Assembly: GCA_034439615.1 (NCBI GenBank)
Contig: JAWXAT010000046.1
Span: 1-54,330, forward strand
Direction: 5' to 3'
From: Oligoflexia bacterium
GTDB lineage: Bacteria > Bdellovibrionota > Bdellovibrionia > JABDDW01
DNA length: 54,330 bases
Positions 14,062 to 30,131 of this stretch are shown here, in pieces; the first letter of the stretch is position 1; the number at the start of each line of letters is the position of its first letter. The notes below the pieces were generated by a model. That model saw only the letters and a list, made by a program, of their open reading frames with translations. It did no database searches and was not told the DNA's origin. Made by a program: the position numbers and the translations under genes.

Positions 14062-15612
14062 GAACCCAGATTGTAATTACTTACAAAACAACATGGGAAA
14101 AAGGCAGCTATGGCAAACTGTAATCAAGAATCGTTCGAATTTCCAGCATTAAAAACAAGTAAAACAACGCGCAAAATCGAGGTCAATTTTTCCGGTGGCG
14201 AGGTCACCAGTGACGGCGGAGTTATGCTGCTGCGAGAAATCGATCGAAAGCTCGGTTTGACACGAGATCTTGCAAAACATCTCAATGACCCACGCAATCC
14301 ATTTTTGATTGAGCACACAAGCCTCGAGATGCTGCGCCAAAGAGTTTATGGTTTGTGTCTTGGTTACGAAGATTTGAACGACCAACAAACTTTGCGAAAT
14401 GATACAGCCATTCAAACAGCAATCGAGAAAGAGTCTCAACTTGCGTCGCCACCAACGTTGTGTCGATTTGAAAACCGTGGTGACCGAAGTACAGCGATCG
14501 CATTCCATGAAGTCTTGATTGAGAAGTTTATTGGGTCATTCCAATCAGCTCCGACAGAGTTGGTTCTAGATTTTGATGCGACCGATGACATTGTTCATGG
14601 CAATCAAGTGGGCAAACATTTTCACGGATATTATGAAAATTACTGTTTTTGCCCTTGTATGTTTTTTGCGGGGATCAGCTTTTAGTGAGTTATCTTCGTC
14701 CGTCAAATATTGATGGCGCGAAACATTCGTGGGCAGTTGCTGCTTTACTGGTGAAGCGTTTGCGAAAAGAGTGGCCGGAAGTAAAAATTATTTTTCGTGG
14801 TGATAGTGGCTTTTGCAGGCACCGAATGCTCACATGGTTTGAGAAAAACAAAGTTGATTACATCATTGGTTTACCTGGCAACAAGAGGCTTGAAAAAGAA
14901 TGTAAAGACTTGATTATCAAATCAAAGGAAGAATTCGAAAAAACAAAAATAAAACAAAAGCTTTTTTCTGAGACAACCTATGCTGCGAAAACTTGGAGTA
15001 AAGAGCGACGCGTGATTGTGAAAGCTGAGCACACAGAGCTTGGCGCGAACACCAGATATATTGTCACTAATCTCGAGGGCCAAGCTCAGCATCTTTACGA
15101 AAATGTCTACTGCGCTCGTGGAGAAATGGAAAACAGAATTAAAGAGCAGCAACTTGATATGTTCGCAGATCGCACGAGTTGCCATAATTGGTGGCCAAAT
15201 CAATTTAGACTTTTGCTCTCAAGTGTCGCCTATGTGCTTATGGAAACCATTCGACGTCTAGCGCTTAAAACGACAGAACTCGCAGAGGCACAAGTTGGAA
15301 CAATCAGACTAAAGCTTTTAAAAATTGGCGCCGTTGTTATTCGAAATACACGAAGAATAAAATTATTATTCTCAAGCCACTATCCCTATCAGGATCTTTT
15401 CAAAAAAGTAGCTCATCAACTTATAAACACTGCCTGAAAAATAAGTGCTGCCCTCGGCACGAAAAACAATGGGGGTAAGGGGGAAGTGTATCCAAAATCT
15501 GAAAACTGCTGAAAAACTCATCAAAAAATTCCAAACTAAAAAACTATCTGAGCAAAAATCAAATGACGCAAACGTTATGAAATATGCGGGTTAGACCCAA
15601 TTGTAATCTGAT
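14062..15612 (+). mobile_element. IS1380-family insertion sequence
   Basis: The element is defined by its transposase; its ends are approximate. ACCCAGATTGTAAT (14064-14077) and ACCCAATTGTAAT (15595-15607) flank it as a near-identical direct repeat. The second also reads on the reverse strand as CAGATTACAATT, giving an imperfect inverted match to the first. I could not settle which, if either, marks the true termini or target duplication. The left end abuts the truncated surface-protein gene. The 215 bp after the transposase hold no gene. Confidence 0.7.
14110..15437 (+). pseudogene. IS1380-family transposase (DDE group 1), single-base frameshift
   Basis: Two overlapping frames make one transposase of about 440 residues. 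The first (14110-14685) has FSGGEVTSDGGVMLLREIDRKLGL, YGLCLGYEDLNDQQTLRND and the first catalytic aspartate in LVLDFDATDDIVHGNQVG. The second (from about 14650) continues with LYVFCGDQLLVSYLRPSNIDG, the second aspartate in IIFRGDSGFCR, and the glutamate region CARGEMENRIKE. Reading six instead of five T bases at 14646-14650 joins them perfectly as YCFLPLYVFCGD. The break is either a real inactivating deletion or a sequencing error; programmed slippage is less likely because the run is short. Confidence 0.88.
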
Positions 15613-24983: not shown

Positions 24984-25550
24984 TTAGATTTTTCCTACCA
25001 AGTTAATACCAGGCTTAAGTGTTTGCTCACCTGGACGCCATTTAGCGGGACAAACTTCATTTGGGTTTTTAGAAACAAATTGAGCTGCTTGAACTTTTCT
25101 TAAAAGCTCATCAGCGTTTCTGCCGATTCCGTTATCGTTTACTTCGGCAAGTTTAATTTTGCCGTCTGGATCTACTAAAAAGGTTCCACGATAAGAAAGC
25201 CCTGCTTCTTCAATGTGGACTCCAAAAGCACGTGTTAAAAAACCAGTAGGATCAGCAAGCATGGGGTAGTTGATCTGCTTAATTGTGGGAGATGCGTCAT
25301 GCCATGCCTTATGAGTAAATTGTGTATCTGTACTTACAGAATAAACCTCAACACCCATTTTTTGAAAAGCTTCATACTTTTCAGCCATGTCACCTAGTTC
25401 AGTAGGACAAACAAAAGTGAAGTCAGCTGGGTAAAAGAAGAAAACCGACCATTTTCCTCGAAGATCTTCTTGGGTTACAGTTTTAAAAGCGTCTTTATGA
25501 TAAGCCTGAGCTTTAAAGTCAGGTACCTTGGTATTAATTAAAGTTGTCAT
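24984..25550 (-). CDS. ahpC: Typical 2-Cys peroxiredoxin (AhpC)
   Basis: The 188-residue protein detoxifies hydrogen peroxide, organic peroxides and peroxynitrite. The peroxidatic Cys48 lies in FFYPADFTFVCPTELGD and the resolving Cys167 in NEVCPAKWRPGE, the hallmark of AhpC-type decamers. No ahpF reductase is adjacent, so reduction must come from another system. It follows the P-loop gene by 12 bp on the same strand, with an AGGAG site before its ATG. It has its own terminator. Confidence 0.96.
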   Translation of the reverse strand: MTTLINTKVPDFKAQAYHKDAFKTVTQEDLRGKWSVFFFYPADFTFVCPTELGDMAEKYEAFQKMGVEVYSVSTDTQFTHKAWHDASPTIKQINYPMLADPTGFLTRAFGVHIEEAGLSYRGTFLVDPDGKIKLAEVNDNGIGRNADELLRKVQAAQFVSKNPNEVCPAKWRPGEQTLKPGINLVGKI

Positions 25551-28481: not shown

Positions 28482-29522
28482 TCAGAATTTATAGTCTCTA
28501 ACATAATGGCACGTATAACCTTTTGGTTTTTTCTCTAAGTATTTTTGATGAAAATCTTCTGCTCTCCAAAATTGTTTAGCTTTTACAATTTCAGTTAGAA
28601 CAGGTTTTTTCCAAACTCCTGAAGCTTCAACTCTAATTTTCATTTTTTCTGAGGTCAAACGCTGGTCTTCATTACTATAAAAAATTGAAGAGCGGTATTG
28701 AGTGCCAACATCATTACCCTGCCGATTTTTTGTTGTTGGATCATGTAATCTAAAAAATAGTACAAGTAAGTTTTCATAAGATTTTTTTTTCGAATCAAAC
28801 AGAATTTGCACAGCTTCGACGTGGCCGGTTTGTCCTGACTTTACGGATTTATAATTAGGATTGGTTGATTTACCACCAATATATCCAACTTGTGTTTCTA
28901 TCACTCCAACTTCTTTTCGAAGTATCTCCTCCACTCCCCAAAAACACCCACCAGAAAGAGTTGCGACTTCCCAATTTTTAATTTTTGCAAAGAGAAATAG
29001 ATATTGCCCATAACCCTTTTCTTTAAGTTTATTTAACGGAATAAAATTTAGAGCAGCAGAATTCATGCAATAACGTTTTCCACCAGCTTCTTTTGGACCA
29101 TCATCAAATACATGACCTAAGTGAGAATCACCATACTTTGAACGTACCTCTGTTCTCTCGGCCCCTAATTTAGTATCCGTTTTAAAAGTAAGATGATCTG
29201 CCTCAATAGGTTTTGTAAAGCTTGGCCATCCAGATCCAGAGTCATATTTGTCTATTGAACTAAACAACGGTTCTCCACTGACAAGATCGACGTATATGCC
29301 GTCAGCTTTGTTATCCCAGTATGCATTTTGAAAAGGTTTTTCAGTTCCTTCTTCTTGTGTGCACGTATACTGCTCTTGAGTGAGTTTGCCTTTAAGTTCT
29401 TCTTTGGAAGGTTTTTTATAGTTATTTGGCCCACTCCAAGTGGAACTCAGCGCGTTATTTTCTAATGCGTAACTATTCATAGAAATCAAAATGAATAAAA
29501 CAGATTTGATGATTAAGTTCAT
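28482..29522 (-). CDS. Exported MsrB-MsrA methionine sulfoxide reductase fusion
   Basis: The 346-residue protein has a signal peptide (residues 1-20, ending NSYALE), an MsrB domain at about 40-165 with catalytic Cys152 in [13 protein letters not shown], and an MsrA domain at about 183-340 with catalytic Cys193 in [12 protein letters not shown]. MsrA reduces the S and MsrB the R epimer of methionine sulfoxide, so the fusion repairs both outside the cytoplasm. MsrB lies before MsrA, the reverse of PilB-type fusions. The MsrB part lacks the second zinc CxxC pair of many members. It diverges from the candidate selenoprotein gene, which suggests a shared redox role. Confidence 0.92.
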
Positions 29523-29609
29523 ACCTTAACTGTCCCGCTACGAAGAATTAGAGTCAAGGCCATTCAAATTAACTGTTGCCATAAAACAAAGTGCCAATAA
29601 AATAGAAAT

Positions 29610-30131
29610 ATGGAACTTGATATTAAAAAACTTTCTAAATGTACCGTACTTGATGAAAATTCGAATCATGTGCTTTTAGAAAGTTTCTGGAAATCTTCGC
29701 CAGCTATTATGATTTTCTTGCGTCATTTTGGTTGAATAGCTTGCCGAGCGCATGCCGCACAGTTGTGGGGCGAGAAAACTAAACTTGAAAGTAACGGATC
29801 CAAGCTGCTCTTTATCGGCAATGGTCCACCTATGATGATCCAAGCTTTCAAAGAAGATCTTGGAATCACACTCCCTGTTTATACTGATCCAGGTTTAAGT
29901 GTTTTTGAAATGGCAGGATTCAAACGCAGCATGACTAGCACACTAGGCCCAAAATCAATTATGAAAGCATTAGCATTAAAAAAACAAGGCCACATTCAAA
30001 AAGGCGTTCAAGGCGATCCGTGGCAACAGGGCGGCGTATTAGCAATCGATACCAATAGTAATATTTTATTTCATTATGCTAGTCAGAATGTGGGGGATTT
30101 CCCTGAGATAAACCAGCTTGTAAATATATAA
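29610..30131 (+). CDS. Candidate selenoprotein: AhpC/TSA-like (SelU/PRXL2-type) protein with in-frame TGA
   Basis: Read through one TGA (29733-29735), this frame gives a 173-residue thioredoxin-fold protein. Residues 31-49 read PAIMIFLRHFG-U42-IACRAHA, so the TGA sits exactly at the first position of the family's CxxC redox motif, with Cys45 second. The rest is uninterrupted and family-like: LLFIGNGPPMMIQAFKEDLG, LPVYTDPGLSVFEMAGFKR and QGDPWQQGGVLAIDTN. PRXL2/SelU proteins have Cys or selenocysteine at this site. A bacterial-type hairpin lies 18 bases past the TGA. The alternative is a nonsense-mutated gene. A standard gene caller would report only the part from 29763. There is no clear ribosome site before ATG 29610. 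Confidence 0.75.
29754..29771 (+). promoter_or_regulatory. Candidate bacterial SECIS hairpin
   Basis: GCCGCACAGTTGTGGGGC folds as GCC-G-CAC / GUG-G-GGC with one G-G mismatch and an AGUU loop. The loop G (29762) is 27 bases past the TGA, within the usual bacterial window, and one of the first two loop bases is G, as bSECIS elements require. An alternative lower stem, CUUGCC with GGCGAG (29740-29745 and 29769-29774), would compete with its base. Confidence 0.6.

Follow-up and report, generated by a model that had tools for sequence, protein, structure and literature searches.

An in-frame TGA predicted to encode selenocysteine in a SelL-related, PRXL2-type redox protein gene of an Oligoflexia bacterium

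By the bSECIS rule, the hairpin accompanying a bacterial selenocysteine (Sec) codon lies just past the UGA, has a G as its first or second loop nucleotide and places its loop about 16 to 37 nt away. A 2007 paper on the eukaryotic selenoprotein SelL reportedly gives its motif as UxxU. Bacterial selenoproteins described as Prx-like thiol:disulfide oxidoreductases, with UxxC or UxxU motifs, have been published (PMC9312934, PMC13188914, PMC1794560), and further UxxC forms appear in PMC1088965 and PMC2398784. The UxxC type has been reported at least since the Sargasso Sea survey (PMC1088965) and is listed among high-confidence predictions (PMC13188914), while peroxiredoxins proper carry the peroxidatic motif PxxxTxxC/U (PMC13188914). 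A symbiont of Olavius has a selenoprotein of the AhpC-TSA_2 family (pfam13911) with the motif UxxS (PMC9312934).

Here, we describe a gene of this kind in a 54,330-nt contig of an Oligoflexia bacterium (the window). The initial annotation had proposed a 173-codon frame interrupted only by a TGA at codon 42 and followed by 131 family-like, undamaged sense codons, and both proposals hold up against the sequence, its translation and the alignment of homologues. The frame runs from ATG 29610 to the terminator TAA at 30129-30131 (another TAA, at 29129, has no part in it), all family-invariant residues are retained, and the TGA lies in the context HFG-U-IAC-R. When aligned, this codon pairs with the redox Cys of homologues, as expected of a bacterial selenoprotein; its counterpart in human PRXL2B is the first catalytic Cys. 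We put the probability that codon 42 is decoded as Sec at about 0.94, a prediction that rests on homology, co-occurrence of the decoding machinery and conservation of the RNA. Ordinary gene callers and standard annotation would shorten such a gene; its recognition adds a well-supported selenoprotein.

Table 1. Features of the predicted selenoprotein locus, in window coordinates.
Feature	Position	Strand	Remarks
Methionine sulfoxide reductase MsrB-MsrA fusion, divergent	28482..29522	-	NF004042, 367 bits, cut-off 330
Promoter-like site upstream of the selenoprotein gene	29576..29603	+	10/12; count not above chance
Selenoprotein gene (predicted)	29610..30131	+	173 codons plus TAA; AhpC-TSA_2 / PRXL2-type; SelL-related redox protein
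TGA codon 42, predicted Sec	29733..29735	+	Cys in the same-phylum homologues scored; TGA in about 75 other-phylum homologues among the matches listed
TGC codon 45, predicted resolving Cys of the U-x-x-C motif	29742..29744	+	Invariant in the alignment
SECIS-like hairpin	29754..29771	+	GCC-G-CAC-[AGUU]-GUG-G-GGC; 7 rungs, one G.G mismatch
Apical loop AGUU	29761..29764	+	Begins 25 nt past the TGA; formed by codons CAG TTG

The protein had been assigned to a 'SelU/PRXL2' type. This stands at the level of Pfam, where it belongs to AhpC-TSA_2 (PF13911; 52.7 bits against a gathering cut-off of 27, E=6.7e-14). Among named bacterial models, however, it lies nearest to NF040769 'SelL-related redox protein'. 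That model was the best and only NCBIfam match (residues 9-172 of 173), and the score of 113.1 bits, short of the cut-off of 120, marks the nearest relative rather than formal membership. It was likewise the best match for all nine Sec-containing homologues scanned against NCBIfam, several of which also scored below the cut-off. The name 'SelU' is best avoided here, since it also denotes the bacterial tRNA 2-selenouridine synthase (PMC9312934). The window protein shares with the published Prx-like selenoproteins, which we compared through their published descriptions (reference protein WP_010940744.1), the UxxC motif, an AhpC/TSA-like fold and a bacterial SECIS downstream of the UGA; those proteins are filed under PF00578, whereas ours matches PF13911 best. 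With the Olavius symbiont protein it shares the Pfam family and Sec at the attacking position, but has UxxC where that protein has UxxS. Because UxxC Prx-like selenoproteins are published and a UxxS member of AhpC-TSA_2 is listed, the kind is already known, and the window protein is a genuine further member of a known selenoprotein family. Our search of the open-licence literature found no selenoprotein of this type from the same bacterial group.

To place the fold, we compared sequence and predicted structure with solved proteins. The best solved relative by phmmer was human prostamide/prostaglandin F synthase PRXL2B (E=1.6e-13), a member of the PRXL2/FAM213 family that includes eukaryotic SelU. 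An AlphaFold model built with ten aligned homologues (pLDDT 87.7, pTM 0.84) retrieved human PRXL2B as the top three Foldseek hits (PDB 9us9, 9usa), the first being the C44S/C47S mutant (E=3e-12, TM 0.80-0.85). The modelled protein thus has the fold of PRXL2B and the counterpart of its C-x-x-C; the alignment across R-x-F-G-C-x-x-C-R is gap free, and Sec42 and Cys45 fall on C44 and C47, the two mutated cysteines. Pfam family and fold are therefore common to both proteins, but ours is bacterial, is at most 23% identical in the fold alignment and has its hairpin inside the coding region rather than in the 3' UTR as in eukaryotic SelU. There is no reason to suppose prostaglandin substrates for it. 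The active site, RHFGUIACR, lacks the PxxxTxxC/U motif of peroxiredoxins proper, and its U-x-x-C differs from the diselenide U-x-x-U of eukaryotic SelL. From the thioredoxin/peroxiredoxin-type fold and the motif, Sec42 would be the attacking residue that reduces a peroxide or disulfide and then forms a selenenylsulfide with Cys45 as the resolving residue, with thioredoxin or a comparable reductant regenerating it. On this basis, a thiol/selenol oxidoreductase is the probable role.

Decoding of the TGA would require the Sec apparatus, and the genome of the window (3.0 Mb, 96% complete) contains the full set of selA, selB, selC and selD that the initial annotation had suggested looking for. We found selA (349.6 bits; cut-off 267.9), a tRNA-Sec (Rfam 69.6 bits, cut-off 47; anticodon tca, or UCA, by ARAGORN) and a 570-aa SelB with an EF-Tu-like GTPase domain and the SECIS-binding SelB-wing_3 winged helix, the latter above its Pfam cut-off. 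SelB itself scores 216 bits where its NCBIfam model asks for 242.25, which counts against the Sec reading. The selD gene (364.7 bits) has an in-frame TGA of its own at the known Cys/Sec site (SCAG-U-AAK), followed at 20 nt by a G-loop hairpin with the loop GUU. SelB carrying tRNA-Sec would then bind the hairpin within the coding region, and UGA codon 42 would be read as Sec. The gene belongs to a class in which nearly all sampled genomes are without selA: of 60 genomes searched, only the window's own and that of a member of the same family, G002, have it. G002 also has selB, tRNA-Sec and a Sec-type selD; it has no homologue of the window protein, and no selenoprotein besides selD was found in it among SelW, AhpC/TSA, CMD and formate dehydrogenase. 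Bdellovibrio bacteriovorus has been described as having selD without Sec decoding (PMC1273633). Across the window's genome and two family members, we found no selenoprotein of the SelW/Rdx or CMD/AhpD families and no formate dehydrogenase alpha subunit over the cut-off, and an AhpC/TSA search returned an internal TGA in the window gene only.

Two genes with an in-frame TGA, the window gene and selD, could also be read as signs of an altered genetic code in which TGA specifies an ordinary amino acid throughout the genome. Yet TGA ends 6 of the 23 stop-to-stop frames of at least 250 codons in the window, as an ordinary stop would; the window gene is the only one of the genome's 15 AhpC/TSA-family matches with an internal TGA; and both in-frame TGAs sit on catalytic Cys/Sec positions. 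We regard this alternative as close to refuted.

We next consider the hairpin itself. The initial annotation had placed a GC-rich hairpin downstream of the TGA with a G at the second loop position, and this proved accurate: the G is nucleotide 29762, 27 nt past the TGA, and the structure conforms to the bSECIS rule. Across both strands of the whole window, an equally stable G-loop hairpin in the SECIS range follows 15 of 2385 TGA triplets (0.6%), and AGUU at a distance of 25 nt, borne by a stem in which 7 or more of 8 rungs pair, is unique to the TGA of codon 42. About 1% of 1000 synonymous recodings of the same peptide reach the observed stability. The G.G mismatch counts against the Sec reading, as does the hairpin being, taken alone, only moderately unusual (p about 0.01). 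A 122-aa open reading frame that begins at TTG 29763 suggests another possibility, that the locus yields two products, a 41-codon peptide that the TGA terminates, plus a second, downstream protein initiated internally. Such a downstream protein would be without the first strand and the active-site residue, the homologues are single full-length proteins, and TTG 29763 is the SECIS loop codon, all of which make a two-product locus highly improbable compared with a single selenoprotein.

We then asked how the site and the hairpin behave in relatives. Among 369 genomes of the phylum, 21 besides the window's own have a homologue at E <= 1e-12. All 22 same-phylum homologues scored have Cys at the site (R-H-F-x-C-x-x-C), and Cys in every other same-class homologue scored counts against the Sec reading. 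A protein-level scan of genome contigs gave no matches; a DNA pattern demanding TGA at the site did find homologues, matching at least 119 stretches in 84,980 species genomes. About 75 of the 80 loci read, among the matches listed, are true homologues with TGA at the same codon. Those listed span some ten phyla, including Thermodesulfobacteriota, Myxococcota, Acidobacteriota, Chloroflexota, Planctomycetota, Actinomycetota, Armatimonadota, Gemmatimonadota and Verrucomicrobiota.

Several individual loci deserve mention. In a different class of the phylum, two homologues (L178 and L179, in G294 and G295) have an active-site TGA in RHLMULIC and RHLAULLC, with G-loop hairpins. Two distant homologues from Chloroflexota (L075 and L094, one from SAR202) have two TGAs in RHFAUVPUR; they share the CAGTTG loop, and their U-x-x-U resembles the SelL diselenide motif. 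A Sec-type gene in a metagenome bin labelled Klebsiella pneumoniae (L126) groups with other phyla, so that the label is probably wrong. One candidate was rejected as a second Sec gene: in G031:C18:73276-73773 (L012), the TGA replaces K/R (AFUAGGF), the active site has Cys and the genome lacks selA, and this TGA is probably a nonsense mutation or a sequencing error.

The DNA pattern made no demand on the hairpin region, and hairpin conservation is therefore an independent test. The hairpin is kept in Sec homologues and missing from Cys homologues. Among the matches listed, 39 Sec homologues besides the window have the loop AGUU exactly 25 nt after the TGA, with compensatory changes in the stem. 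This spacing of the loop start is the commonest (43 of 78 Sec genes among the matches listed), as is a loop beginning AGU. Of the 78 Sec genes (among the matches listed), 40 contain CAGTTG, counting that of the window, against 0 of 22 Cys genes. Relative to synonymous recodings, the mean z score of stability is -1.46 for the 78 Sec genes and 0.03 for the 22 Cys genes (Mann-Whitney p=1.6e-7). Rung cells are paired in 82% of cases in register against 25-57% when slid, above all 2000 column shuffles; single rungs swap among G-C, C-G, A-T and T-A in Sec homologues, and the second rung is A-T in the window hairpin and G-C in most relatives. Codon choice in the loop is biased as well: Leu at U+10 is coded by TTG in 39 of 42 Gln-Leu genes among the matches listed, compared with 13.5% over the remainder of those frames (p=1e-30, a value that overstates independence, as the sequences are related). 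In the Cys relatives of the window gene, this position is mostly Val or Ile. Amino acid conservation (AQLR) could be the source of part of the rung pairing; it cannot explain the TTG bias.

These data bear directly on whether the window gene is instead a Cys-type gene whose Cys codon took a nonsense mutation, leaving a pseudogene, or was misassembled. A single base turns TGC or TGT into TGA, the class relatives scored are all Cys and the window gene lies within their clade, so that one such mutation or sequencing error would be compatible with the DNA alone; that such changes happen in this family is shown by L012, whose TGA lies outside the active site and whose genome has no selA. Against this, the frame is otherwise intact and keeps the family-invariant residues, the genome has a complete Sec apparatus, and CAGTTG with paired flanks lies exactly where Sec homologues of other phyla have it and 0 of 22 Cys relatives do. 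The loop, the paired flanks and the TTG bias are strong evidence that the window TGA is a Sec codon, and we consider a mutated or misread Cys codon very unlikely. The contrary findings named in advance, missing Sec genes or Cys relatives together with an unconserved hairpin, were looked for, and none overturned the selenoprotein reading. A loop so fixed in bacterial PRXL2/SelL-related genes (AGUU, 25 nt, CAG TTG) means that codon choice helps tell Sec from Cys genes, and the AGUU/25-nt signature, of which we found no earlier description in the open-licence literature, offers a simple, testable handle for finding more genes and probing SelB recognition.

Given a predicted Sec gene among Cys relatives, Sec may have been lost around it or regained within it. 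In our tree, the window gene is nested in an otherwise all-Cys clade (100/99 support). An alternative tree, with the Cys forms as one clade beside the window gene, is equally good (AU p=0.49), and therefore one Sec-to-Cys loss in the relatives suffices; such a loss is equally compatible with the tree and simpler than regain. It is unlikely that the window lineage regained Sec, which would entail re-evolving the AGUU loop at the 25-nt spacing of other phyla. The Sec set behind the tree was chosen by TGA and the Cys homologues came from the window's own phylum, a sample on which either ancestral Sec or regain may hold. Earlier work concluded that where a family combines rare selenoproteins with widespread Cys homologues, Sec in most cases arose from Cys, in organisms already having the Sec trait (PMC1794560), so that either direction of change may apply here.

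Finally, we examined the genes nearby. The divergent methionine sulfoxide reductase fusion had been taken to fit a redox role. The gene is real, but the link is weak, because none of 107 homologue loci, inspected over flanks of 1.5-8 kb with the window locus as positive control, has an msrBA beside it; the neighbour fits a redox theme only loosely. About 4 kb upstream, a typical AhpC-type peroxiredoxin gene without an internal TGA lies on the minus strand (24984-25550). Farther away, at 14110-15437, a DDE transposase (PF13701) is divided by a frameshift, either programmed or a defect, into two overlapping frames whose matches to the model follow one another.
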